This document shows, in pieces, positions 26,849 to 38,212 of a stretch of 38,212 bases of DNA. The notes under the pieces are model-generated. The model worked only from the letters and a program-made list of their open reading frames with translations. It was not told the origin of the DNA and ran no database searches. The DNA comes from an uncultured Lachnospiraceae bacterium (GTDB lineage Bacteria > Bacillota > Clostridia > Lachnospirales > Lachnospiraceae). Numbering within the stretch: position 1 is the stretch's first letter; the number at the start of each line of letters is the position of its first letter. The position numbers and the translations under genes are program-made. The stretch is taken from assembly GCA_946407725.1 (NCBI GenBank), contig CAMJPM010000024.1, forward strand, positions 1-38,212, in the 5' to 3' direction.

Positions 26849-28128
26849 CAGTATACTATTCCTCCCCCCGCTATGGTATGTATTATCCTCCCCGGAAGCC
26901 TCTGTCCCTTAAAGGGAGAATTATCTGACTTCCCGTGAAAGCTGTCGTAAAGAGTTTCCTGCTCTGTGCTGAAAATAACAATATCCGCCGGATGACCTTC
27001 AAGAATATGTCCCGTATCAAGTCCGTAGAGCGCCGCAGGGTTCACGCTCATCCGGGTAATAAGCTCCGGAAGAGTGAGATAGTGAAGGTTAACCAGGTTT
27101 TTAAGCCCAAGTGAAAAAGCGGTCTCAAGCCCTATGATCCCGCTCATACAATCGGGAAGATCCTTATTCTTGTCCGAAACGGTATGGGGCGCATGGTCAG
27201 TGGCAATAATATCAATGGTGCCGTCCTTTAACCCCTCTATTATTGCAAGCCTGTCTGTTTCTGTCCTTAATGGCGGATTTATCTTTGCCAGAGAGCCGTA
27301 TTTCCTTACAGCCTCTTCCGTCAGGGAAAAATGGTTAGGTGTGGCTTCCGCATGGATAAGACCTTTTTTATCCTTTCTTTTGGCATCACGTATCAATTCT
27401 ACGGTTTCGGCAGCGCTTACATGCTGGATATCTATGGTGCAGCCGGTTTTAAGAGCCAGTGCCAGATCCCTTTCAACCATCTGTATCTCAGCTTTCCTGT
27501 CTGCTCCACTTAAGCCCATCTCTTTGGAAACGGCACCCTCATTTATCCCCGCAGTACCTATATACCGGGGATCCTCTTCATGAAAGCTGAGTACAGCGTT
27601 AAGGGCGGCGGCTTCTGTCATGGCCCTTTCTGCCAACGCTGCATCTTCGATGGGAGATCCGTCATCCGTAAAGCCCACAGCTCCTGCTTCAATGAGTGCC
27701 CTGAAATCCGTAAGAGCGTATCCTTTACGCTCCTTTGTAACTGTGCCGCACTGGAGAACATGTATCTCTTCTTTTCCGGCTTTTTCTGTTACCAGTCTTA
27801 AGGTTTCAGGAGAATCCACTGCCGGAATGGTATTTGCCATAAGGATCACCGTAGTATATCCTCCTGCCGCAGCGGCCAGAGAACCGGAGTGAATATCTTC
27901 CTTTTCCGTCTGACCCGGATCCCTGAAATGCGTATGTACATCCACAAATCCCGGCGCAACAAAACATCCCGTGGCATCAATGACACGGCATTTGGCGTTC
28001 CCACATTCAATATTTCCGCCTGCTCTGCTGACAAAACCGTTCTCTATCAGTATATCCCCGGTCTCATCAAGGCCGTCAGCCGGGGACAGTATATGCCCGT
28101 TTTTGATAAGAATACTATTATCCTGCAT
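26848..28128 (-). CDS. pyrC: dihydroorotase
   Basis: PyrC cyclises carbamoyl-aspartate to dihydroorotate. It is a class I, amidohydrolase-type zinc enzyme of 426 residues: 'DVHTHFRDPGQTEKEDI' with the HxH metal pair (~62-77), 'IDIQHVSAAETVELI', 'HAEATPNHFSLTEE' and the catalytic Asp in 'IIATDHAPHT'. The post-translationally carboxylated lysine of some classes is not obvious at the usual place. The terminator of the rpsF-ssb-rpsR block lies between rpsR and pyrC, so pyrC probably has its own promoter in the ~35 bases downstream of it or depends on read-through. Confidence 0.95.
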   Translation of the reverse strand: MQDNSILIKNGHILSPADGLDETGDILIENGFVSRAGGNIECGNAKCRVIDATGCFVAPGFVDVHTHFRDPGQTEKEDIHSGSLAAAAGGYTTVILMANTIPAVDSPETLRLVTEKAGKEEIHVLQCGTVTKERKGYALTDFRALIEAGAVGFTDDGSPIEDAALAERAMTEAAALNAVLSFHEEDPRYIGTAGINEGAVSKEMGLSGADRKAEIQMVERDLALALKTGCTIDIQHVSAAETVELIRDAKRKDKKGLIHAEATPNHFSLTEEAVRKYGSLAKINPPLRTETDRLAIIEGLKDGTIDIIATDHAPHTVSDKNKDLPDCMSGIIGLETAFSLGLKNLVNLHYLTLPELITRMSVNPAALYGLDTGHILEGHPADIVIFSTEQETLYDSFHGKSDNSPFKGQRLPGRIIHTIAGGGIVY

Positions 28129-28163
28129 AGAAAATATTATACACGCACTCCCCCGATGCCGTC

Positions 28164-28192
28164 AAAAAAACAGGAACCCCGAAAGGTTCCTG
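28164..28192 (-). terminator. intrinsic terminator of rpsF-ssb-rpsR
   Basis: CAGGAACC/GGTTCCTG (28185-28192 and 28171-28178) with a 6-base loop, then seven T residues on the minus strand. It lies 18 bases after the rpsR stop. Confidence 0.9.
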
Positions 28193-28210
28193 TCATTGCA
28201 AGCGGTCTGC

Positions 28211-28471
28211 TTATTCAACTACATAGGGCAGCAGTGCTATATGCCTTGCCCTCTTTATGGCAACCGTAATGGCTCTCTGGTGCTTTGCGCATGTTCCGGT
28301 CACTCTTCTGGGAAGGATCTTTCCTCTCTCGGAAATATACTTCTTTAACTTAACTGCATCCTTGTAATCTATTACACTGTCTTTTCCGCAGAATACGCAA
28401 ACCTTCCTTCTTCTGCGAATACCCCCGCGTCTTGGGTGCTCTGCACGATCATTATTTCTGTTGAATGGCAT
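28211..28471 (-). CDS. rpsR: 30S ribosomal protein S18
   Basis: S18 binds next to S6 on the 30S platform. Sequence '[18 protein letters not shown]' is the C+ form with a Cys-x-x-Cys pair, followed by '[25 protein letters not shown]', described here as the family's RITG/T-C-x-KHQR signature. It has 86 residues from ATG 28471, chosen because AGGAG lies 8 bases upstream; a GTG two codons earlier is too close to that site. It is the last gene of rpsF-ssb-rpsR, a block conserved across most bacteria. Confidence 0.98.
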
Positions 28472-28513
28472 AATCACATCTCCTATTATTCTGCTATTTC
28501 ACTACTGTCTGTC

Positions 28514-28972
28514 TCAAGCGAACGGAAGATCTTCATTGATCCCGTCCGGCACGTTGATAAATCCGTCATCTACACCTCCGGATGTGTTTCCGCCCATATC
28601 CTGTGGGGGAGCGCTGTAGGAGGATCCGCCGTCATAGCCTTCTGCGGCCTTTTTACTCTCGGCAAATTCCACATCCTCTCCTACCACATCGGTGGTATAA
28701 ACCTTCTGACCGTCCTTATTTGTGTAGCTTCCGGTCTGAATCCGTCCACGGACAACAAGCTTCGTGCCCTTATGAACATATTTTTCAATAAATTCCGCAG
28801 TCTTTCCGAATGAGACCATGCTGATAAAATCAGCAGCCTGCTCCGCATTATTTCTGGAAAACCTTCTGTCTACTGCCAGTGTATAACGGGCTACGACTGT
28901 CTGGCTCTCACCCTGTGACTGACGGATATCAGGATCTCTTGTAAGGCGCCCCACTAAAACAACAACGTTCAT
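28514..28972 (-). CDS. ssb: single-stranded DNA-binding protein
   Basis: SSB coats single-stranded DNA during replication and repair. The OB fold begins 'MNVVVLVGRLTRDPDIR' and includes 'DFISMVSFGKTAEFIEKYVHKG' type core strands; the C-terminal tail is Gly/Ser/Pro-rich and ends 'NEDLPFA', the acidic tip that recruits partner proteins. Here an extra Ala follows the usual final Phe. ATG 28972 is chosen; a GTG at 28984 lies inside the AGTGAGG ribosome site. It sits between rpsF and rpsR as usual. Confidence 0.97.
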   Translation of the reverse strand: MNVVVLVGRLTRDPDIRQSQGESQTVVARYTLAVDRRFSRNNAEQAADFISMVSFGKTAEFIEKYVHKGTKLVVRGRIQTGSYTNKDGQKVYTTDVVGEDVEFAESKKAAEGYDGGSSYSAPPQDMGGNTSGGVDDGFINVPDGINEDLPFA

Positions 28973-29008
28973 ATTTTGCCTCACTTTCCTATATTGACCG
29001 GAGTCTTA

Positions 29009-29386
29009 TCACTCTTCCTCTGCGGCTGTTTCAGGAGCAGCTTCTTCTGCAACGCTTTCAGCTGCGGGAGCTTCTTCCTTCTTGATGCCGGTATTCTCGG
29101 GAAGATCATCGGTAACGATAAGGTACCTTACGACTCCATCCATTATACGCATTCTGTGTTCTATCTCGGCGGGAGCTGAAGACTCTGCCTCGAATTTGAT
29201 GAAGTTATAATAACCTTCTTTTGATTTCTGGATCTCGTAGGCATATCTCTTTTTGCCCCACTCATCCACATTTTTGATCGTGCCTTCAAAACGCTCAATA
29301 AGCGCTTTGACCTTGTCAAGGACAGCATTTTTGGCGTCCTCTTCAAGCCTGCCGTTGATCACAACGGCCAATTCGTACTTATTCAT
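29009..29386 (-). CDS. rpsF: 30S ribosomal protein S6
   Basis: S6 forms a heterodimer with S18. 'MNKYELAVVINGRLEED' and 'WGKKRYAYEIQKSKEGYYNFIKFEAES' (split motif: KR-AYEI and GYY-FI-F) are family signatures, as is 'DGVVRYLIV'. The C-terminal ~25 residues are an Ala/Glu-rich tail. An AGAAGGAGGAAAAA ribosome site precedes ATG 29386. It is the first gene of the block, with its own promoter at 29450-29478. Confidence 0.98.
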   Translation of the reverse strand: MNKYELAVVINGRLEEDAKNAVLDKVKALIERFEGTIKNVDEWGKKRYAYEIQKSKEGYYNFIKFEAESSAPAEIEHRMRIMDGVVRYLIVTDDLPENTGIKKEEAPAAESVAEEAAPETAAEEE

Positions 29387-29406
29387 TTTTTCCTCCTTCT
29401 GGTCTT

Positions 29407-29430
29407 TGGCCCACGTTTCCCGTGAGCAAG
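29407..29430 (-). promoter_or_regulatory. candidate structured leader of rpsF
   Basis: Between the promoter and rpsF the transcript can form GCUCACG-GGAAA-CGUGGGC (7 bp including one G-U). S6:S18 autoregulatory leader hairpins are known upstream of rpsF in many bacteria. I could not match the conserved bulge with confidence, so this is only a candidate. Confidence 0.25.
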
Positions 29431-29449
29431 GGATATATCACAAAAAGCC

Positions 29450-29478
29450 ATTCTATATCAAAACTCTATCTAAGTCAA
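29450..29478 (-). promoter_or_regulatory. rpsF-ssb-rpsR promoter
   Basis: TTGACT (29473-29478) and TAGAAT (29450-29455) on the minus strand are separated by exactly 17 bases, a strong sigma-A match. It starts 10 bases downstream of the stop of the upstream fusion gene and leaves a ~55-60-base leader. Confidence 0.75.
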
Positions 29479-29488
29479 GCAAAAAATA

Positions 29489-32197
29489 TTACGCCCACTT
29501 CTCATACTCCCGGATTTCAATGTATCCGGTATTTCCGCGCAGTACCTCCCCGGCCTCGCAGGATACGCCGTTCTCTTTAAGCACTTCGCAAAGGGCTTCA
29601 GCATAGACTTCTGTTTCCCCGCCCTGGTTAACCGTAATGCAGAAAGAGCCAGGAAGAGCCATCATCATCAATACTGTCTGTGAACCCTCTGACGGATACA
29701 GGAAATATGCTCCCTCCAGCAGTGAAGAGTATTCATTTTCCGTGATCCTCTGCACATATGAAACGTTAAAGGTAAATAGCGGTCCGTTACTGAAATTCGC
29801 AAAAAGGCCTGCCGCTTCCTTATAGGGAAGCCTGGGAAACTTTTCCATCATATCAGCCATCATTTTAACTGCCGTCACACCGGCTTCTTTCGTTGTTCTC
29901 TGCTCCAGGGCAGCCTGCAGCTTTAATGCCACATCCTTTATATCTGACTTAAGGGTCTCCGGAGGGATCGCTGTTATCACCGGAGGCATGGCACAGTTCC
30001 TGAAGGTGTTGGGAATACCAAGGGCCTCCCTGAAATCCACAGGGATTGCGATCTTCATCTCCCTGCCGGGTTCTCCCATTACTTTAACCACCGCTTTTGC
30101 GTAAGACGCCGCAAGGAATGCCGCCGGACGCACTCCCAGAGTCTTTGCCGCTTTCATATATCCGGCTGCATCCGCCTTGATAAAATAGTGGCAGGGCTTG
30201 ATATCCCCGGCTTCAAATCCCTTCTGAATAAGGAAGGGTGTCTTATCCATAAATCCGCCGCCTTTTTTTGCAGGCATTTCAGGAAGCTTCATCTTTTCAA
30301 ATTCTTCCTTTGCCGCCTCGAAGGGTTCGGCGTTTACATCGGGGTTCTCTTTTAATTCAGGAATATAACTTCCACTGTCAGAGTATGACGCATAGGCCTT
30401 AAGCATCTCATCTGCGAACATCATAAGGCCTCTGCCGTCCGTAAGTCCGTGGAAGGTTGCGACAGTCACTTCCTTCCCTTTAAAGAAAATATTCGTGATG
30501 ATCCCCTCTGTTCCCTCTCCGCCGAGAGCGGGCATCCCCTCATAATCTCCCTCTCTTATTTTAATTGTCCGGGATGTCGCCTTTTGGCAATAGAAAGAAC
30601 CGTCCTCCTCGTAAATTCCGTATGCCGCCCAGGGATGGACCATCAGCGCATCATCGGCCGCCTTCTGCAGCTTATCGGGATCAATATCATCCTTAAATAC
30701 AAACCTGACTGCGATGGCATGAAATGAGGAATCGGTATACATGAAGAATTTACCCGAAAGTATTGCTCCTCCGATATTCCTTCCGCTTTTCGCATTGTCT
30801 ATGCCCACCGTGAATTTATATTCCTTTTCAAACTTACCCTTATTAAAGGATCTCACCACATCCCAGCCGTTGCACTGCCCGGAGCACATGAATGCATCAC
30901 ACTTGGACAGGATATACAGTGCATAGAAATAATTCACTGTAGTATCCTCCAGCGCATCCTTATATGCCTTGCCCTTATTCAGCTTTTTCTCAAATTCAAA
31001 TATCAGGCTTGTGTCCTTTTCCTTCAATTCGGACACTGTATGTCTCTCCTGGGCGATAACGGTGATTTTACCGGGAAACTCCTTTAAGAATGCGTCGTAG
31101 ATATCCTTATCCTCTGTCGCAAGGAAGATCTTCTCATATCCCTTCTCCTGCATCCACTTTTTGATCTCGGGTATCATATGCGCCGGTCTGGCGTGGATCC
31201 TGTCATCCCCGAGATTGTTGGTCACATAATCCGTTCCCCTTGCAAGTACACCCAGGGTCTTTTTATTTCCAAGGACCGCCTCTGCATACTCGCTCATTTC
31301 TCCTGCGAACCCATCTTCCAGTATGCTTTCATCAAAGTTGGCGGGATACTGACAGCATAACCAGGTCGTGGATAATGCCGCCAGATCGGTTATAACTATG
31401 GTATTATCCGGTGTTGCATCCGCAGGTTTTGGATTCAGGCGGAAATATCTGCAAAGAAGCTCCTCCGGATATCTGGTGCAGCCGGGCTGCAGATATGCCG
31501 ACAATCCCCTTACAGCGGCTACATTCGAGGTCATTGACATGATCGACAGTATGGCTCCAATGCCCGAAATCTGAGACAGTATCACCTCCAGATACTTTGC
31601 TCCGCCCTTTTTTCCCGAAGTAAAGGCCTGCCAGAAAAACACATTCTGAAAGGCTGCAACTGAACCGAGCTTACTCCAGTCGCGAACGGTATATCCCATA
31701 TCAAAAGGGCCGGAGTTTATCCTTAATACTGTTTTGTCAGGCTCCTCCGGAAGTTCCCCGGTCTTATTAAGCTGCGGTGTCTCTTCCAGAAACCATTCAA
31801 GCCTTTCATCCGCGTAATACACCGGAACATCTGTATACCTGAGAGCCGTACGGGCAACCGCAACGCTGTATTCGTCCACATTTTCCAGCTCTATCTTCGT
31901 AAACTGCTTAAGGAAGTCCAGACACATATTATCCGTATCTTCTTCATCATAGGTAAGGAATGGCATATAGAGAGCACCGCCCTGGGTCATCTTAAGGATC
32001 AGGGCACGTACCTGCTCGGGAAAAAGAAGCATATTCGCCGTATAAACAAGATCATAATCCGGAACACGGCCGCTTTCATCAGTAACATGAAATCTGGTCT
32101 CTCCTTCCCTGACCCTGGCTAGTGCATCATGAAACACATTTATTCCGTGCTTAAGGGTAATCAGTTCTTCATTGCTTCTTTCAGCAATATTCAGCAT
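29489..32197 (-). CDS. fucosyltransferase-like / condensation-type acyltransferase fusion
   Basis: A 902-residue protein with two recognisable halves. Region 1-~310 is not recognised beyond mixed alpha/beta character. Region ~311-475 resembles NodZ/O-fucosyltransferase-like GT folds: 'LGVLARGTDYV' (Arg320, donor-binding Arg in that family), 'KIFLATEDKDIYDAF' (356-370), then 'YALYILSKCDAFMCSG' (425-440). Region ~483-900 resembles condensation/alcohol-acetyltransferase proteins: 'DPDKLQKAADDALMVHPWAAYGIYEEDG', described here as the N-terminal helix-strand, the active-site 'FHGLTDGRG' (His583, Asp587-Gly588), 'IPVDFREALGIPNTFRN' (718-734) and 'FTFNVSYV' (808-815). No signal peptide or membrane helix is obvious. 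ATG 32197 follows GGAGG by 7 bases. With the ACP gene upstream, acyl transfer from ACP to a glycan made or bound by the first half is a plausible role; this is inference. Confidence 0.75.
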   Translation of the reverse strand: MLNIAERSNEELITLKHGINVFHDALARVREGETRFHVTDESGRVPDYDLVYTANMLLFPEQVRALILKMTQGGALYMPFLTYDEEDTDNMCLDFLKQFTKIELENVDEYSVAVARTALRYTDVPVYYADERLEWFLEETPQLNKTGELPEEPDKTVLRINSGPFDMGYTVRDWSKLGSVAAFQNVFFWQAFTSGKKGGAKYLEVILSQISGIGAILSIMSMTSNVAAVRGLSAYLQPGCTRYPEELLCRYFRLNPKPADATPDNTIVITDLAALSTTWLCCQYPANFDESILEDGFAGEMSEYAEAVLGNKKTLGVLARGTDYVTNNLGDDRIHARPAHMIPEIKKWMQEKGYEKIFLATEDKDIYDAFLKEFPGKITVIAQERHTVSELKEKDTSLIFEFEKKLNKGKAYKDALEDTTVNYFYALYILSKCDAFMCSGQCNGWDVVRSFNKGKFEKEYKFTVGIDNAKSGRNIGGAILSGKFFMYTDSSFHAIAVRFVFKDDIDPDKLQKAADDALMVHPWAAYGIYEEDGSFYCQKATSRTIKIREGDYEGMPALGGEGTEGIITNIFFKGKEVTVATFHGLTDGRGLMMFADEMLKAYASYSDSGSYIPELKENPDVNAEPFEAAKEEFEKMKLPEMPAKKGGGFMDKTPFLIQKGFEAGDIKPCHYFIKADAAGYMKAAKTLGVRPAAFLAASYAKAVVKVMGEPGREMKIAIPVDFREALGIPNTFRNCAMPPVITAIPPETLKSDIKDVALKLQAALEQRTTKEAGVTAVKMMADMMEKFPRLPYKEAAGLFANFSNGPLFTFNVSYVQRITENEYSSLLEGAYFLYPSEGSQTVLMMMALPGSFCITVNQGGETEVYAEALCEVLKENGVSCEAGEVLRGNTGYIEIREYEKWA

Positions 32198-32276
32198 GTC
32201 ATTTCCTCCATCTCTTTTTTAATCCCGTATGTTCCATTCCCCTTATTATATTTTCCCGCACTTTACTCGTAATCTC

Positions 32277-32305
32277 CAAATACGGCAAACTGTTTGCCGT
32301 ATTTG
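32277..32305. repeat. 14-bp-arm palindrome between sirtuin and fusion gene
   Basis: CAAATACGGCAAAC (32277-32290), one base, then GTTTGCCGTATTTG (32292-32305), perfectly complementary. It begins 5 bases after the sirtuin stop codon and lies in the 113-base gap before the fusion gene. No T-run follows on the minus strand, so it looks more like a stabilising or processing hairpin than a classical terminator. Confidence 0.75.
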
Positions 32306-32310
32306 CTCCG

Positions 32311-33051
32311 TCAGATAACCATATCCCCCAATACTTCCCCGATACTGTCGGAAATACAGAGATCCGCCTGTTTGTCTCTGGCAGTGGCGCCCTTGTTGAT
32401 AAGTACAAGGGAATCTCCCCTGAAATAATCGATAAGCCCGGCTGCGGGGTATACCACAAGGCTGGTGCCTCCGATTATCAGCACATCTGCATGGGATATG
32501 GCGTCTATGGCTCCGGAGATTGTATCCTGGTCAAGCCCCTCCTCATACAGCACCACATCGGGTTTTATTATCCCTCCGCAGCTGTCACATCTGGGAACGG
32601 GATCCGTGCTGTTTTTCATATAATCAAGGTCAAAGGACTTACCGCATTCCATGCAGTAATTTCTGAGAATGCTTCCATGAAGCTCATATACGGTCTTACT
32701 GCCCGCTGCCTGATGAAGACCGTCAATATTCTGGGTTACAACTGCGGTGAGTTTCCCTTTTTCCTCCAGCTCGGCAAGCTTCAGATGGGCCTTGTTGGGT
32801 CCCGGGTTTTTATCGGATCCCGCCATCAGGATCTTATCCCTGTAAAATTTATAGAATTCCTCCGGTTTTCTCATAAAAAAGGTATGGCTTAAGATCTGCT
32901 CCGGCGGATAGTCATATTTCTGGTGATAGAGACCGTCAACAGATCTGAAATCGGGTATTCCGCTCTCGGTGGAAACCCCGGCACCTCCAAAGAAAACGAT
33001 CCTTTTAGCCCTGTCAATTATCTTCTGCAGCTCTTCTCTTTTTGCATCCAT
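32311..33051 (-). CDS. NAD-dependent protein deacylase, Sir2 family
   Basis: Sirtuins remove acetyl or longer acyl groups from lysines using NAD+. Present: 'GGAGVSTESGIPDFRS' (22-37), 'VVTQNIDGLHQAAG' (104-117), catalytic His125 in 'ELHG', a zinc set Cys133/Cys136 and Cys155/Cys158, and 'IIGGTSLVVYPAAGL' (192-206). The family fold is complete at 246 residues. The Tyr/Arg pair typical of desuccinylases is not evident, so a general deacetylase or deacylase is likely. It lies 3 bases after the MaoC gene, so it is firmly within the acyl-carrier operon; whether it acts on that pathway is unknown. Confidence 0.94.
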   Translation of the reverse strand: MDAKREELQKIIDRAKRIVFFGGAGVSTESGIPDFRSVDGLYHQKYDYPPEQILSHTFFMRKPEEFYKFYRDKILMAGSDKNPGPNKAHLKLAELEEKGKLTAVVTQNIDGLHQAAGSKTVYELHGSILRNYCMECGKSFDLDYMKNSTDPVPRCDSCGGIIKPDVVLYEEGLDQDTISGAIDAISHADVLIIGGTSLVVYPAAGLIDYFRGDSLVLINKGATARDKQADLCISDSIGEVLGDMVI

Positions 33052-33054
33052 GAG

Positions 33055-33483
33055 TTAATCCTCCTTCTCCGTTAAAAAGCCTATCTGCATGGAACCCCTT
33101 AGCACCTTTTCCCCGGCGCCGTTTTTCATGGCTGTTTTTATCCTGATCACCCTATAAGCATCATTTTTTTCCGCCACTTCCCCACTGATAATCAGGGTTT
33201 CCCCGGGATATACCGGCTTCATGAACTTGATCTCCGTATTCTGTATTATGCTTTTTTCTCCTGGAAGATACATTCCGGCCAGAGTGGACAGAAAAGACGC
33301 TGTCAGCATTCCGAAAGCCGCATGGGATGTAAATCCGTATCTTTTGGCAAATTCATCATCCATGTGAAAGGGATTCATATCCCCGGTGATATTTCTGAAT
33401 ACATCCAGCATTTCATCGGTGACAGTCACTTCAAACTGTTCTTTATGTCCGATCAATAAATCTTCATATTCATAATGGTTCAT
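33055..33483 (-). CDS. MaoC-family (R)-hydratase/dehydratase
   Basis: Hot-dog-fold hydratase 2 family. The active-site segment 'ITGDMNPFHMDDEFAKRYGF' has Asp35 and His40, the same Asp-x4-His spacing as PhaJ-type (R)-specific enoyl hydratases. 'PGEKSIIQNTEIKFMKPVYPGE' (74-95; FxxPVYPG) is also typical. Such enzymes interconvert (R)-3-hydroxyacyl and trans-2-enoyl thioesters on CoA or ACP. Its partner here is probably the ACP encoded 54 bases upstream. At 142 residues it is a single domain and complete. No ketosynthase or ketoreductase is seen nearby. Confidence 0.88.
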   Translation of the reverse strand: MNHYEYEDLLIGHKEQFEVTVTDEMLDVFRNITGDMNPFHMDDEFAKRYGFTSHAAFGMLTASFLSTLAGMYLPGEKSIIQNTEIKFMKPVYPGETLIISGEVAEKNDAYRVIRIKTAMKNGAGEKVLRGSMQIGFLTEKED

Positions 33484-33537
33484 TGTGATCCCTCCGCTCC
33501 TGCTTTCACTTAAGTTCCGGCTCCGGCTTACTTAAAG

Positions 33538-33801
33538 TCACAGCCTGCTCAGTATGAGATCCGCCATTTCCCCTACGTTCTTAAGCTTCCCCACTTCCTT
33601 GATATTGAATTTCATGTTGAATTCCTTTTCCATGGTCATGACCAGCTCCACATGGGCAAGACTGTCCCAGTCTTCAATATCCTCCGCATTGGTCTCATCC
33701 ACTATGATAAGGGAGTCGTCATCAAACTCCTCCCTGAAGATCTCCGTTATCTTTTCAAACACCTCTTCCCTTGTCAAACCGTACTCCTTTCGTATCTCCA
33801 C
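33538..33801 (-). CDS. dedicated acyl carrier protein
   Basis: An 87-residue, acidic, four-helix carrier protein with 'DIEDWDSLAHVELVMTMEKEF' around the phosphopantetheine Ser47. The 'WDSLAHV' form differs from fatty-acid AcpP ('ADSLDTVEL') and is typical of dedicated ACPs in glycan-acylation and secondary-metabolite loci. 'MKFNIKEVGKLKNVGEMADLI' finishes the fold. It lies 6 bases after the Cys-cluster gene. No acyl-ACP ligase or phosphopantetheinyl transferase is in the window, so charging must use enzymes elsewhere. Confidence 0.9.
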   Translation of the reverse strand: MEIRKEYGLTREEVFEKITEIFREEFDDDSLIIVDETNAEDIEDWDSLAHVELVMTMEKEFNMKFNIKEVGKLKNVGEMADLILSRL

Positions 33802-33807
33802 ATTATG

Positions 33808-34401
33808 TCAACCTACATCAAAAGTTCTCAGCGGATCATAGACTACCTTTATTTCCCTGCTGGAGCTTTCCCTTTCTTTGGAATTCATCTCAACCAGATC
33901 CAGTATCAGCGGATCCCGCACCAGATGTTTCCACACCGTAAAGGTGGCAAGGATAAAATCCCTGTTTAATTCCCGTTTTTCGCTTATGAGCGGACATACA
34001 TAGGGCAGGGGATCCATATCCCAGATCAGTACCAGATGCCCTTCGTCCAGAAAATGCGGACTCAACGGAAAGGTGCGGCACTGGATCGGGCGCTTTTCCC
34101 TGGGACATTGGGGCGCATCCTTGCATTTTACGAAAAAAACCTTTCCCTTCCAGGATTCCGGAAACACATATTCCTCCGTGGATTCCTCGCTCCAGATGAG
34201 CCAGCTGTCATTTTTGGAATGCAGCTTGTCCTCCCCGGGCAGGAGATATATTCCCATGGCTTCATCCCACTGTTTATCCTCAGGTGTTCCGCAGCAGACC
34301 GCTCCGCAGAGGCTTCCGCAGTCATAAGGCAGAGGGGAGAACCTGTCCAGAAAAGCATATATGGCCCTGTAGTCGTCCTTCCTTATAATGGATTTAATCA
34401 T
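33808..34401 (-). CDS. YkgJ-like cysteine-cluster protein
   Basis: The 197-residue protein carries Cys28, Cys32, Cys36 and Cys37 ('DCGSLCGAVCCG') and Cys93, Cys99 and Cys108 ('VKCKDAPQCP...RPIQCRTFPL'). The C-x-Y/RP-x-x-CR-x-FPL arrangement matches YkgJ-type proteins, thought to chelate zinc or iron. Its biochemical role is unknown. The N-terminus, 'MIKSIIRKDDYRAIYAFLDRF', is helical and there is no signal peptide. It overlaps the AAC(3)-like gene by 8 bases and precedes the ACP by 6 bases. That tight packing suggests a role in the same pathway, perhaps as a metal-dependent modifier. Confidence 0.75.
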   Translation of the reverse strand: MIKSIIRKDDYRAIYAFLDRFSPLPYDCGSLCGAVCCGTPEDKQWDEAMGIYLLPGEDKLHSKNDSWLIWSEESTEEYVFPESWKGKVFFVKCKDAPQCPREKRPIQCRTFPLSPHFLDEGHLVLIWDMDPLPYVCPLISEKRELNRDFILATFTVWKHLVRDPLILDLVEMNSKERESSSREIKVVYDPLRTFDVG

Positions 34402-35173
34402 CCTGCCCCTTATAGGTACAGATCTTTCTGCTCCTGTTATTTACCGCGTCATCATATATAATGTCATAAGTCTTTCCCATTTCTATTGTCTTCATGGGGA
34501 TATCATTTACCATATATCTTCTGGAAGCTCCTGCGGCGATGAAATCCTCCTCAAAAGGAAAGATGGTGACAAAAATATCCCTGTCAAGATCCCTTACGTT
34601 CATTGAGTATGTACGAATACTCTCATTGCCCTCATAATCAATATAAGGTGCCGTAAAATCCTTCAGATATCTGTATGTGACCTTTGCCTGTTCCTCCACA
34701 TAGTGGACAAATGTATAGGAATGCTGACATTCCACATCAATGAACACGTTTTTGGTATTATGATCCCTGCAATAGGTAAAGGGAGAATCCGCTCCGAATG
34801 AGCTTTTGTTTGTCATGGCGCAGAGCTCTTCCCTGTCATGACCCCACACCGCAAAGCTGTAGATCGGGTGCCTGGTCCGTCTGAAATCCTCTCTTTTCAG
34901 CGCCACCTTTCCGATAACCCCTGTCCTGCAGGGACTCTTCCTTATGTCAAAGGCCTTTCCGCTGCAAAAATCCCAGTTAAAGGTGGGTATCAGAATGGTG
35001 CCCTCCGGACCTATGATATCAATGATGCCGTCTATCAGCTCATTCATATCCCCGCTCTCACCGTTTTCCAGCGAGGTATATAAAAGTGTCTTAACATCTG
35101 AAGCCACCCAGACGCTGTCACCACTTTTCAGTCCGAAATATTCCGGTATCTTCCTAAGCGGTATATATGACAT
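34394..35173 (-). CDS. AAC(3)-family N-acyltransferase
   Basis: Resembles aminoglycoside 3-N-acetyltransferase family proteins (YokD, FrbF), which transfer acyl groups from CoA to amines of sugars or other metabolites. Shown by 'GTILIPTFNWDF' (58-69), 'RRTRHPIYSFAVWG' (98-111), 'FGADSPF' (126-132) and the catalytic-type 'FVHYVEEQ' (His157, Glu160). 259 residues is normal. Many chromosomal members lie in surface-glycan loci and do not confer antibiotic resistance, so no resistance role is inferred. It is the first gene of the acyl-carrier cluster and is preceded by a hairpin-rich gap. Confidence 0.85.
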   Translation of the reverse strand: MSYIPLRKIPEYFGLKSGDSVWVASDVKTLLYTSLENGESGDMNELIDGIIDIIGPEGTILIPTFNWDFCSGKAFDIRKSPCRTGVIGKVALKREDFRRTRHPIYSFAVWGHDREELCAMTNKSSFGADSPFTYCRDHNTKNVFIDVECQHSYTFVHYVEEQAKVTYRYLKDFTAPYIDYEGNESIRTYSMNVRDLDRDIFVTIFPFEEDFIAAGASRRYMVNDIPMKTIEMGKTYDIIYDDAVNNRSRKICTYKGQDD

Positions 35174-35192
35174 GGCTGCCGCTCCTTTCCAT

Positions 35193-35339
35193 CGTATCTA
35201 TTCAGAACCCTCCGGATTCTGAATAGATACGCGCATTCGGCTCATTAGAGTCGTGCTACGCACGAGGAGCCGAAAGGTGAAATGTCCAGTGGACATCTTT
35301 CCACTTGCGGTTCCGCAAGTGACTGTTCTGAACAGTTAC
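35193..35339. repeat. cluster of five inverted repeats
   Basis: Hairpins in order: 15-bp arms 35193-35207/35217-35231; TTCGGCTC/GAGCCGAA (35236-35243, 35267-35274) enclosing TCGTGC/GCACGA (35251-35256, 35260-35265); ATGTCC-AGT-GGACAT (35282-35296); CACTTGCGG/CCGCAAGTG (35302-35310, 35313-35321); ACTGTTC/GAACAGT (35322-35336). Together they fill the gap between the GH25 gene and the AAC(3)-like gene. Confidence 0.85.
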
Positions 35340-35353
35340 TTTCCATCAAAAAA

Positions 35354-36364
35354 TCAGTAAAATGCCAGATTGAGGTCACAGTTTCCTTCCACTCCGGGTA
35401 CAGAGCCGCTTTCACTGTACTGCCAGATCCTCATCTCATAGGGAAAATAGGGGGTGTAACTGTCTTCGGAAATGTATCCCGCAAACCATTTCTGGTAATC
35501 CTCCAACAGAGCGATATCAGTCAGCCTTAAAAAGGTCTTGATATTGCCGTATATTATGGGGGTATAGCCCGCCTCCCTGATCCGTTCACAAAATGCTATG
35601 ACGTTTTTTGTATACTGTTCCTTTTTCAGGCCCTTTGTTCTGGGAGTTGTCTCGAAGTTTTCCACTTTTTCCAGATCATAGGCTATGGGACAGGTGATTT
35701 TTTTATCCTTTATACATTCCAGGACAAAATCCGCTTCCTCCCGCGCTTCCTCCTCGTTAATGGCCTGGGAAAAAAAGTAGGTACCGGTTTCAAGTCCGGC
35801 GGCTGACGCCTTTTCCACATTGCTGTCAAAGGAATCATCCTTGACTATGGCTCCTGAACCGTATCCTCTTATACCGGCCCTGATATAGGCAAACCTCACG
35901 CCGGAGCTGTAGACCTTTTCCCAGTCCACTGTTCCATTATATTTGGAGATATCTATGCCTTTTATCCCCTTTATCTCTCCGTCCTCAATATAATCCAGGG
36001 TACCGTCTTCGTTTTTCCTGAATTCCCCGTTCTTATAACTGTTTTTCTTCAGCTTCTCCTGAATGTCATAAAAATAGAAGCTTCCCTCGTCTGTCAGAAC
36101 CAGTTCATCGGGGAAAAAGTATTTCAGTATCTGTATGGTAGAGTATCCCGACTGAGCCATTTCCTTGAGCTTTAATCTGAAAAGGGCTCCCGAATCCTCT
36201 GTCTCAGCCCGGATCACAGTATTATTTTCAGAAAGCTTTTCCTCTGTTTCATTTTCCCTGAAAGCAAAAAACAGGGCCACTACAAGGAGTGCAGCGGATA
36301 TAAATGTCACGAAGACCGCATAGAACAGCAGTCCTCCCGCTCCGTCTTTATTATTTTTCTTCAT
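35354..36364 (-). CDS. membrane-anchored GH25 muramidase
   Basis: GH25 enzymes cut peptidoglycan between N-acetylmuramic acid and N-acetylglucosamine. An N-terminal membrane helix (~10-35) anchors the protein; a linker region (~36-130) is not recognised; the GH25 barrel runs from ~135 with 'KGIDISKYNG' (Asp138), 'FAYIRAGIRGYGSG', the catalytic 'YDLEKVE' (Asp230, Glu232) and C-terminal 'IWQYSESG' and 'NCDLNLAF'. All key residues are present. The anchoring suggests a wall-remodelling enzyme rather than a phage lysin. It is separated from the acyl-carrier cluster by the hairpin-rich gap, so a functional link is uncertain. Confidence 0.92.
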   Translation of the reverse strand: MKKNNKDGAGGLLFYAVFVTFISAALLVVALFFAFRENETEEKLSENNTVIRAETEDSGALFRLKLKEMAQSGYSTIQILKYFFPDELVLTDEGSFYFYDIQEKLKKNSYKNGEFRKNEDGTLDYIEDGEIKGIKGIDISKYNGTVDWEKVYSSGVRFAYIRAGIRGYGSGAIVKDDSFDSNVEKASAAGLETGTYFFSQAINEEEAREEADFVLECIKDKKITCPIAYDLEKVENFETTPRTKGLKKEQYTKNVIAFCERIREAGYTPIIYGNIKTFLRLTDIALLEDYQKWFAGYISEDSYTPYFPYEMRIWQYSESGSVPGVEGNCDLNLAFY

Positions 36365-36430
36365 GACAGCTATTATAACACATTTTTATGAAAACTATTC
36401 AGAATCCCCCACACCGCACGTCCGGGGCAC

Positions 36431-36483
36431 TGACCGACACTGTCGGTCAAAACGTGCCCGTAAAACGTCCGCTGGACGTTTTA
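36431..36483. repeat. two inverted repeats in the GH25-lipoprotein gap
   Basis: TGACCGACA-C-TGTCGGTCA (36431-36449), flanked by GGGCAC/GTGCCC which can extend it, and TAAAACGTCC-GCT-GGACGTTTTA (36461-36483). The rest of the 226-base gap holds the terminator and AT-rich sequence. Confidence 0.8.
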
Positions 36484-36531
36484 CCGCAAAAAATAATTTT
36501 TGATTAAAACAATCAAAGAAATCTTTTTTGA

Positions 36532-36576
36532 TACAAAAAGACAGCCGGAGAAACTGATGGGCTCCTCCGGCTGTCT
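36532..36576 (-). terminator. intrinsic terminator of the lipoprotein gene
   Basis: A 12-bp stem AGACAGCCGGAG/CTCCGGCTGTCT (36565-36576 and 36539-36550) with a 14-base loop is followed by TTTTTGTATC on the minus strand. It lies 14 bases after the stop codon. Confidence 0.9.
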
Positions 36577-36590
36577 CTTAAAATTTTTAC

Positions 36591-37256
36591 TTATTCAAGT
36601 TCCCCGTCATATGAGATGGTTACGTCAGTTATGGCATCCCCTTCAAATGTAAGGTCTATAAGGAATGGTTCATTGTCAGCGGAATATACATCATATTCCA
36701 CAAAATCCTCATCCGCATCGGTAGGGGCAGTCATATCATAGGTGGTGATATTGAACTGGGCGAAGATCTTTCCGAGTTCGGGATACAGGGCCTTTATTGC
36801 CTTCTTCTGTCCGTCGGTAAGGGTTCCGATTTCATAATCTTCCAGATCTTCCTTTGCGGAAGTCTCATCACCTTCATAATATGCCGTAAGATATGCAAGC
36901 CTTGCCTTGCTCATATCTCCGTCCTTGTCCTTAACGTCAACCGGCTTTTTGGGCTCCTTTTCCTTTAATACCACTTCGGGAGCGTCTACATACACGTAGG
37001 TCTGGTCGTTAATGAATGCTGAAAGACTGTAGCTTCCGTCTTCCAGGGTTCCTGCCGTAACGTCCTGATTGGATTCCGCATCGTCATCCTCAAATACGAG
37101 TTCCGTATCATCGCCGTCACCATCTGCCTCTTTTTTGGCATCGGGACCTATTCCCGAGGTGTCCGGCAGGTTCATTCTGCAGCCTGTAAGGGAGGCTGCC
37201 AGTAATGAAGCCGAAACAATGAGCATTGCTACTTTAGATAATCCTGACCTTTTCAT
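36591..37256 (-). CDS. hypothetical lipoprotein
   Basis: The signal peptide ends in SLTGC (Cys26), a good lipobox, so the 221-residue product is probably lipidated and exposed at the membrane surface. An acidic, low-complexity stretch (~38-65, 'DGDGDDTELVFEDDDAES') follows, then a predicted beta/alpha region ending in 'FEGDAITDVTISYDGELE'. No known domain recognised. It has its own strong terminator and lies alone between two gaps, so it is probably monocistronic. The 200 bases upstream contain two BspEI-like TCCGGA sites and a GATCCGGATC palindrome but no clear promoter. Confidence 0.8.
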   Translation of the reverse strand: MKRSGLSKVAMLIVSASLLAASLTGCRMNLPDTSGIGPDAKKEADGDGDDTELVFEDDDAESNQDVTAGTLEDGSYSLSAFINDQTYVYVDAPEVVLKEKEPKKPVDVKDKDGDMSKARLAYLTAYYEGDETSAKEDLEDYEIGTLTDGQKKAIKALYPELGKIFAQFNITTYDMTAPTDADEDFVEYDVYSADNEPFLIDLTFEGDAITDVTISYDGELE

Positions 37257-37456
37257 CTTTATTCACCATTCCTTTTTTAATCTGTATTATTTTTTTAACA
37301 TCCGCGGGTTATAACATTTACGATCCGGATCATTCAGTAATATCATACTCCGGATCTGTATTTTTCGGTATATTATCACAGATCTCAAAGGAAATCCATG
37401 GAATTCAGAGAATCTTAAATAATATTCATCATATTTTAATTGCGTTAACTGCGCCA

Positions 37457-37909
37457 TCAACCCTCGATGGCGATCAGTTTTTTCTCCTCAACCTTCTTTT
37501 CAGGCTCTTTCTTCGGGATGTTAAGTGTCAGAACACCGTTCTCAAATCTGGCCCGGATATCGTTCTCAGTGATCTCCTCACCTACATAAAAGCTCCTGCT
37601 GCAATGTCCGGTGTAGCGTTCCTTCCTTATGTACTCTCCTTCCTCTTTCTCGTCCTTTACCTCTTCATGACTGGCATTGATGGTAAGGTAGCCTTCCTTC
37701 AGCTCAGCCTTAATATCCTCTTTCCTGAAGCCCGGAAGAGAAATATCCAGCTCAAAGCCCTTGTCGCTTTCCTTAACATCCGTCTGCATCATATTTACCG
37801 GAGAAGAAATACCCGGGTTCCAAACATGCTTAAAGGTTACGGGAACATCAAAGAAATCATTGATAATGTCGTCTGTGAAGTTGTCGTTAAAAATTCTAGG
37901 TAATAACAT
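37457..37909 (-). CDS. hsp20: small heat-shock protein, Hsp20/alpha-crystallin family
   Basis: Hsp20 proteins hold unfolding proteins in an ATP-independent way. The 150-residue protein has the short N-terminal 'MLLPRIFNDNF...DDFFDVP' arm (here written in parts), an alpha-crystallin domain (~45-135) with 'FELDISLPGFRKEDIKAEL', 'RSFYVGEEITENDIRARFENGVLTLNIPKKE' type strands including the conserved GVLTLxxPK, and a C-terminal KK-rich tail. It stands alone behind its own promoter with a perfect CIRCE operator. No dnaK, groEL or hrcA gene is in the window. Confidence 0.96.
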   Translation of the reverse strand: MLLPRIFNDNFTDDIINDFFDVPVTFKHVWNPGISSPVNMMQTDVKESDKGFELDISLPGFRKEDIKAELKEGYLTINASHEEVKDEKEEGEYIRKERYTGHCSRSFYVGEEITENDIRARFENGVLTLNIPKKEPEKKVEEKKLIAIEG

Positions 37910-37971
37910 AGTGAAGCCTCCTTTTTATTATCCGTCCTGTTTCAAAGGGTATTGTTTTTGTTTACGACTAT

Positions 37972-38000
37972 GTTATACCACTATTGTTAGCACTCGTCAA
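37972..38000 (-). promoter_or_regulatory. hsp20 promoter
   Basis: TTGACG (37995-38000) and TATAAC (37972-37977) on the minus strand, separated by exactly 17 bases: a near-consensus sigma-A promoter. The -35 lies at the edge of the CIRCE element, so repressor binding would cover it. The leader is ~60 bases. Confidence 0.8.
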
Positions 38001-38013
38001 GTATGAGTGCTAA
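37987..38013. promoter_or_regulatory. CIRCE operator (HrcA-binding site)
   Basis: TTAGCACTC (37987-37995), 9 bases, GAGTGCTAA (38005-38013): a perfect match to the canonical CIRCE inverted repeat, the binding site of the heat-shock repressor HrcA. It overlaps the -35 of the hsp20 promoter. Confidence 0.97.
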
Positions 38014-38057
38014 CAAATTTTGTGAACTTTCTGTGAAAAACGTCCCGTGCCCCAGAG

Positions 38058-38095
38058 TAAAAAAGCCCCCTGCTTAAAGCAGGGGGCTAGTTTTT
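38058..38095. terminator. bidirectional intrinsic terminator
   Basis: AGCCCCCTGC (38064-38073) pairs with GCAGGGGGCT (38079-38088) across a short loop. TTTTTTACT follows on the minus strand and AGTTTTTAT on the plus strand. It ends the ferredoxin transcript and could also end any rightward transcription from the hsp20 upstream region. Confidence 0.9.
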
Positions 38096-38116
38096 ATGCA
38101 TATTTTTCGTTTTCGT

Positions 38117-38212
38117 TTATTCAGCCTTGATTGCGCCGGTAGGGCAGGCACCTTCACATGCACCGCAGTCAATGCAGGTTCCTGCATCAACAACATACTT
38201 GTCAGATCCTTC
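38117..38212 (-). CDS. 2[4Fe-4S] ferredoxin, 3' part
   Basis: The last 31 codons of a gene that enters from the right edge. The product ends 'TCIDCGACEGACPTGAIKAE', containing C-x-x-C-x-x-C-x3-CP, the second cluster motif of clostridial-type 55-56-residue ferredoxins; roughly the first 25 residues, with the other cluster motif, lie outside the window. It carries electrons between low-potential redox enzymes in the cytoplasm. The stop TAA (38117-38119) is followed by the bidirectional terminator. Confidence 0.93.
   Translation of the reverse strand, partial: EGSDKYVVDAGTCIDCGACEGACPTGAIKAE

Follow-up and report, generated by a model that had tools for sequence, protein, structure and literature searches.

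A region of Clostridium acetobutylicum, CA_C2195-CA_C2199, which encodes a DUF4910 protein, a MAF_flag10 protein, an aminosugar N-acetyltransferase, an acyl carrier protein (ACP; gene acpA) and an N-acetyltransferase joined to a HAD domain, was proposed in 2014 to make a modified surface sugar (PMC4000134). The association of DUF4910 and an aminosugar acetyltransferase with an ACP has been known since then, and the locus dealt with here adds a twist, being a MaoC- and sirtuin-bearing, partly dispersed form that is core to a genus. It lies on a contig of an uncultured Lachnospiraceae bacterium, the whole of which, 38,212 nucleotides, was analysed and is termed the window (contig C24 of the source genome G000, which is 3.28 Mb in 162 contigs and 98% complete). 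Its six genes encode an AAC(3)-fold acyltransferase (AAC3), a Cys-rich protein (CYS), an ACP, a MaoC-type dehydratase/hydratase, a Sir2 NAD-dependent deacylase (SIR2) and a 902-amino acid protein (GTC, or GT-acyltransferase), and the order from upstream to downstream, neighbors included, is GH25, AAC3, CYS, ACP, MaoC, SIR2, the 902-amino acid gene, rpsF and ssb. Three to four of the six (AAC3, ACP, MaoC and perhaps the sirtuin) are a module kept together across the genus. The reading favored here, at a rough probability of 0.55, is that of a chromosomal genus-core cassette for ACP-dependent acyl decoration, which would place a short acyl group on an amino sugar, perhaps a nonulosonate.

The C. 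acetobutylicum region resembles this cassette in bringing together DUF4910, an aminosugar N-acetyltransferase, an ACP and an acetyltransferase-HAD fusion; it differs in being linked to spsE/spsF and glycosyltransferases and in that its Table 2 lists neither MaoC nor a sirtuin, while the window has no linked DUF4910 or HAD genes. In Campylobacter jejuni, Cj1295 is required for pseudaminic acid to occur in its di-O-methylglyceroyl form (PMC3068675), and strain 12664, which is without that form, has a cj1302 pseudogene (PMC7099621). The flagellin locus of C. jejuni contains Cj1295, Cj1296/7 and Cj1302 (fkbH domain), and the window genome differs from it in having no Maf gene. Cj1295 is presumably of the DUF4910/DUF2172 family, and we know of no MaoC or sirtuin in that locus. 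Genes for 3-oxoacyl-ACP-reductase or ACP have been tied to flagellin glycans elsewhere (PMC3765264, PMC4875605, PMC7874193; PMC13317340 and PMC13130089 give context). The Shewanella sfmABCDE genes and the enterobacterial and Aeromonas flagellin islands are like the module in their ACP or FabG-like genes, and differ in that the passages describing them name other transferases and make no mention of an AAC(3)-DUF4910 pair. A search of the open-access literature, outside which many journals lie, found no description of an AAC3-ACP-MaoC-sirtuin cluster. In the Nod factor system of NodF, NodA and NodZ, an ACP and an acyltransferase act on an amino sugar. The window differs in its AAC(3)-fold enzyme and its unlinked GT, and the likeness to Nod factors drawn in a preliminary description of the locus finds no sequence support, none of the six proteins matching a NodA or NodC family in Pfam or NCBIfam.

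Conservation of the module within the genus

The genus, mostly rumen bacteria with isolates MC2017, NK4A144 and AC3007 among its members, is represented by 48 genomes, and AAC3 is present in 42 of them. Linkage was counted on stretches fetched from 41 of the 48, leaving out G001, G002, G014, G025, G036, G038 and G042, where the module is missing, fragmentary or unfetched. In 32 of the 41 a span of 2.2-4.9 kb takes in AAC3, ACP, MaoC and SIR2, with wide variation of order and strands, and because this closeness has been kept through so many changes of order and strand the clustering goes beyond chance. Elsewhere AAC3 stands apart on long stretches with ACP, MaoC and SIR2 still together (G010, G019, G041), AAC3 and the ACP-MaoC-SIR2 group are on separate short contigs (G044), the module is cut by contig ends (G017, G037, G045), or one or more matches are missing (G009, G021). 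The preliminary description had suggested that the dedicated ACP, MaoC protein and AAC(3)-like enzyme act jointly, which these counts bear out, and that all six genes might do so; the four co-occur but CYS and the GT-acyltransferase are scattered. In G047 a gene for a 713-amino acid LRR_5 (BspA-like) protein sits between AAC3 and ACP (L088 6753-8894).

AAC3 belongs to a DUF4910-linked subfamily of the AAC(3) fold, and its HP..S and T..H..E motifs align with those of the Antibiotic_NAT structures 3e4f and 3ijw. The ACP beside it is by Pfam match and alignment of the dedicated type, the serine of its DS motif being invariant in 8 aligned ACPs, just as D35 and H40 of MaoC are invariant among 8 aligned relatives. 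SIR2 scores 180.5 bits with the Pfam model (cut-off 24) and 333.4 with NF001752 (cut-off 221), which puts it above the deacylase cut-off. The mechanically called open reading frames (ORFs), all on the minus strand at 29489-35173, agree with the six same-strand genes first described, with an 8-base overlap followed by gaps of 6, 54, 3 and 113 bases. One refinement is a probable ACP start at the TTG at position 33777, making the CYS-ACP gap about 30 bases rather than 6; the sequence AAAGGAG ends 6 bases before this TTG, which aligns with the MTREE start of relatives.

Partners, distant relatives and fusions

In 23 of the 41 genus genomes the stretch around AAC3 or MaoC includes a gene with DUF4910/DUF2172/HTH_47, and in Bacterium C-53 (L199) the genes AAC3-DUF4910-FkbH-ACP-MaoC-SIR2-rpsF-ssb are contiguous, with FkbH over the TIGR01686 cut-off. 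(Gene names such as rpsF, ssb, PseB, PseC and MBOAT are presumptive labels given by eye unless a family match is stated.) Stretches around FkbH carry FkbH-ACP-MBOAT in six of ten, and the FkbH genes of G000 and G027 are without a recognized ACP or MBOAT. As the G000 FkbH has no recognized ACP adjoining it and the window ACP has one match in G000, this FkbH would now use the window ACP. PseI, PseF and PseG of G000 exceed their NCBIfam cut-offs (within the genus the PseI model was run on G000 alone) and there are two further NeuB-family genes, so nonulosonates are probably available in this genome.

An alignment scan with AAC3 over one genome per species, 84,980 species in all, gave 127 relatives, of which the best 80 loci were kept. 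The distant set is the 35 of these best 80 with less than 65% identity, and as Prevotellaceae supply 13 of its loci and a single Campylobacter record two, the loci are not all independent. Within 6 kb of AAC3 in this set are found an ACP (24), DUF4910 (19), an AMP ligase (19), FkbH (4) and SIR2 (1), and none of the 35 loci lacks all three of DUF4910, ACP and loader. A Pse/NeuB gene is equally near in 14, 12 of them with DUF4910 as well. An amino-sugar acceptor fits because many distant relatives sit in pseudaminic acid or other nonulosonate loci; the acylated amino sugar or glycan suggested at the outset is compatible with this, though not as the product of all six genes. Within the set it is the Lachnospiraceae form that is distinguished by MaoC and SIR2 next to AAC3, L218 apart. 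In Lysinibacillus antri flagellin, Maf, pse genes, AAC3, DUF4910, FkbH and ACP are on one stretch. The one Prevotellaceae locus followed gene by gene, that of a Prevotella (L234 7243-9777), has a three-gene unit, AMP ligase-ACP-AAC3, beside what by eye are ribosomal protein genes.

A tblastn search with AAC3 gave five matching plasmid records, and in all five DUF4910 is within 4 kb of AAC3: adjacent in two, with an IS3 between in one and with one gene between in two. In the alphaproteobacterium Maritalea AAC3 is fused to FkbH, PF02522 and TIGR01686 both being over cut-off, and the same fusion is found in the alphaproteobacterium Sinorhizobium RAC02, with PF02522 over cut-off and the FkbH part recognized by sub-cut-off Pfam matches and tblastn. 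Both also have a MaoC-SDR fusion over cut-off, to which tblastn adds an ACP end that is not called by Pfam (in Maritalea with a DSL motif), and in both DUF4910 and nonulosonate genes are near the fusions. Such fusions indicate which enzymes work together. AAC3 and DUF4910 are among pse genes on Tritonibacter and Agrobacterium plasmids, and AAC3 adjoins DUF4910 in S. chiapasense. Plasmid cassettes of Erwinia and Rahnella (L317, L318) have the composition AAC3/FkbH-MaoC-SDR(-ACP)-ATP-grasp-MFS beside aminotransferase/nucleotidyltransferase genes; the Rahnella AAC3 protein, annotated HAD-IIIC, has MaoC and SDR after it, and annotation breaks the Erwinia copy into many short pieces.

Proposed pathway and its alternatives

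FkbH loads a glyceryl-type unit onto ACP, MaoC substrates are 3-hydroxyacyl or enoyl thioesters and AAC(3)-fold enzymes acylate amines. From this family knowledge and the gene links together we infer a path of loading, tailoring and transfer, with its reaction order, acyl group, acceptor and sirtuin role. An FkbH-type loader, encoded on contig C2 of G000, would charge the window ACP with a small acyl unit, which MaoC would dehydrate or hydrate while it is ACP-bound. The AAC(3)-fold enzyme would then move the acyl group to a sugar amine, most likely that of a nonulosonate (pseudaminic acid, for example) or of another cell-surface or flagellar amino sugar, and the DUF4910 protein, encoded on C37, may help this transfer. 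The sirtuin perhaps serves the same pathway by stripping unwanted acyl groups off proteins.

Several observations weigh against such a cassette. The partners are not at hand in the window cluster: DUF4910 of G000 is alone at C37, the single FkbH match is at C2, leaving the cluster with no loading enzyme (FkbH or AMP ligase), and PseF, PseI and PseG are at C46. A Maf/MptE search gave no match in G000, where flagellins are present, and flagellin is accordingly not claimed as the target; two of the 48 genus genomes have such a gene. In the distant set, MaoC is within 6 kb of AAC3 in one locus of 35 and flagellin, searched with one query protein, in none. The neighbors of the Rahnella genes for the AAC3-FkbH fusion, MaoC and SDR, namely an aminotransferase/nucleotidyltransferase fusion and a CDP-alcohol phosphatidyltransferase, do not have the look of glycan genes, so the acceptor may vary and may not be a glycan. 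The joint absence of AAC3, DUF4910, the core MaoC and the core ACP from G036, G038 and G042, whose remaining ACPs are about 52-53% identical and which keep SIR2 and flagellin, counts in favor of the cassette but may be one or two losses: a five-protein tree pairs G036 with G038 and leaves G042 unplaced. SIR2 is found in genomes without the module, and is beside rpsF in four of the 17 module-less stretches read (G042, G073, G081, G075); G001 (66% complete) is also without the module and keeps SIR2. From C. jejuni, strain 12661 is likewise without the glyceroyl sugar, and the source in its account of that strain names another missing gene, not fkbH (PMC7099621). In Table 1 of PMC3068675 the Cj1296/7 'N-acetyltransferase' is off in both variants, the glyceroyl sugar being made when Cj1295 is on, and this therefore counts against a general need for an AAC(3)-like enzyme in C. 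jejuni.

The closest alternative leaves the acyl-decoration cassette standing and concerns the sirtuin. AAC3, ACP and MaoC would form the pathway, with the sirtuin a mere old neighbor that has a general lysine-deacylase role, and its chances are placed only a little short of even. It is favored by the presence of SIR2 in 116 of 145 genomes and by its position next to rpsF in the four module-less genomes already named. Against it, a hand count over the 41 genus genomes that carry the core MaoC puts SIR2 on the same contig and no more than about 0.6 kb away in 39, the two exceptions, G021 and G037, being at contig ends, whereas rpsF is within 2.5 kb of SIR2 in 11 of the 25 stretches long enough to tell (25 of 37 SIR2 stretches, the other 12 having less than 2.5 kb on one side). 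A figure of 25 in 25 for SIR2 adjoining MaoC or ACP is biased, the stretches having been fetched around AAC3 or MaoC, and the 39 of 41 is used in its place. In G003 and G023, moreover, SIR2 sits between module genes. On balance there is a slight lean towards a functional tie of the sirtuin to the module.

Another possibility is that the same enzymes N-acylate a secreted small molecule other than a glycan with the ACP-bound group. The Erwinia and Rahnella cassettes, in which ATP-grasp and MFS genes are beside aminotransferase and nucleotidyltransferase genes, would suit this, as would the lack of glycan genes in the window locus. However, the Pse/NeuB genes close to AAC3 at the distant loci counted above and, similarly, on the Maritalea, Tritonibacter and Agrobacterium plasmids point the other way, and by eye no export or metabolite genes were recognized next to the module on ten stretches, so this is considered unlikely. 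A little more doubtful is the strongest version of a role for the sirtuin, that within an FkbH-MaoC-AAC3 pathway of glycan acylation it is a dedicated NAD-dependent eraser of the very acyl group in question, clearing it off wrongly acylated proteins or the sugar itself. If it were so, sirtuin-coupled acylation would tie surface decoration to NAD status.

That all six genes form one acyl-glycan system, with the GT-acyltransferase providing a glycosyl donor step, had been the initial proposal, and the common strand and short gaps are in keeping with it. It has become very improbable. The 902-amino acid gene is linked to SIR2 in one of the 41 genus genomes, the window's own, and full-length relatives, present in 12 of the 48 (G000 included), are single genes in unrelated loci where read; in the close relative G015 there are 88 bp between SIR2 and rpsF where the window has this gene. 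A promoter-like site at 29478-29450, between the 902-amino acid gene and rpsF, is a further point against, with the reservation that such sites were no commoner in the scan than in shuffles. CYS is in the cluster with AAC3 in eight of the 41 and alone in unrelated neighborhoods in others, and was rejected as a core part on that count. Judged by these comparisons, the 902-amino acid gene is an inserted neighbor outside the module, and both CYS and the GT-acyltransferase are passengers. Least credible of all is that AAC3 serves aminoglycoside resistance and clusters with the other genes by chance, rejected in spite of the Pfam Antibiotic_NAT match as AAC3 scores 38.7 bits where the NCBIfam AAC_3 resistance equivalog requires 270 and is spread through the genus in company with ACP and MaoC.

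Surroundings of the module and wider meaning

Features of the window, with family matches where recorded
Feature	Position	Strand	Remarks
AAC(3)-fold (Antibiotic_NAT) acyltransferase, AAC3	34394..35173	-	core; proposed ACP-dependent N-acyltransferase; PF02522 1.3e-28
Cys-rich protein, CYS	33808..34401	-	family-less; lineage-specific passenger
Dedicated acyl carrier protein, ACP	33538..33777	-	core; mechanical ORF extends to 33801; PF00550 1.4e-5
MaoC-type dehydratase/hydratase	33055..33483	-	core; PF01575 1.8e-17
Sir2 NAD-dependent deacylase, SIR2	32311..33051	-	co-travels with MaoC; PF02146 3.8e-53
902-amino acid protein, GTC	29489..32197	-	putative GT half and condensation-like acyltransferase half (by eye); outside module
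GH25 lysozyme-like gene	35354..36364	-	frequent neighbor; PF01183 5.3e-33
Intergenic repeat rich in hairpins	35193..35339	.	inserted between GH25 and AAC3

The two passengers are hard to place by family. CYS, in which Cys 28, 32, 36, 37, 93, 99, 108 and 136 are invariant among 14 relatives (8 Cys), had no match in Pfam, NCBIfam or PDB sequences. The 902-amino acid protein had none in Pfam or NCBIfam, and neither PDB sequences nor Pfam searches of its relatives assigned it to a family with confidence. A weak Condensation match (0.071) occurs in one of 14 relatives, and in the HxxxDG pattern of the protein H583, D587 and G588 are nearly invariant. Its halves are what we take to be fucosyltransferase-like and condensation-like. 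In G005 there is a tandem pair of its relatives. Relatives of its first half are found in a conserved row with a 558-amino acid protein and one that by eye is phosphatase-like (L302 448-4311, L304 12779-16698, L305 3540-9336), and near the row in L304 and L305 are condensation-like acyltransferases and ABC transporters.

Eleven of the 41 genus genomes have GH25 on their AAC3/SIR2 stretch, and it also adjoins SIR2 in the module-less G042. Where the repeat is absent, the GH25-AAC3 gap is 3 bp in G015 (by ORFs) and 15 bp in G007 (by match coordinates). A copy of the repeat on contig C1 of G000 (L285:12399-12545) is 87% identical over 148 bp, and partial copies are in L284 and G005. The gap between SIR2 and GTC contains a perfect 14-nt inverted repeat at 32277-32305 without a T run. 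Rfam gave no matches at gathering scores over 28000-38212.

For proteins usually named aminoglycoside acetyltransferases, the cassette offers a testable job. AAC(3)-fold proteins are tied to FkbH by fusion, and by close linkage to the MaoC-SDR-ACP fusion, DUF4910 and nonulosonate genes. The isolates MC2017, NK4A144, AC3007 and others are where amino-sugar acyl decoration, and a possible part in it for the sirtuin, would be measurable.

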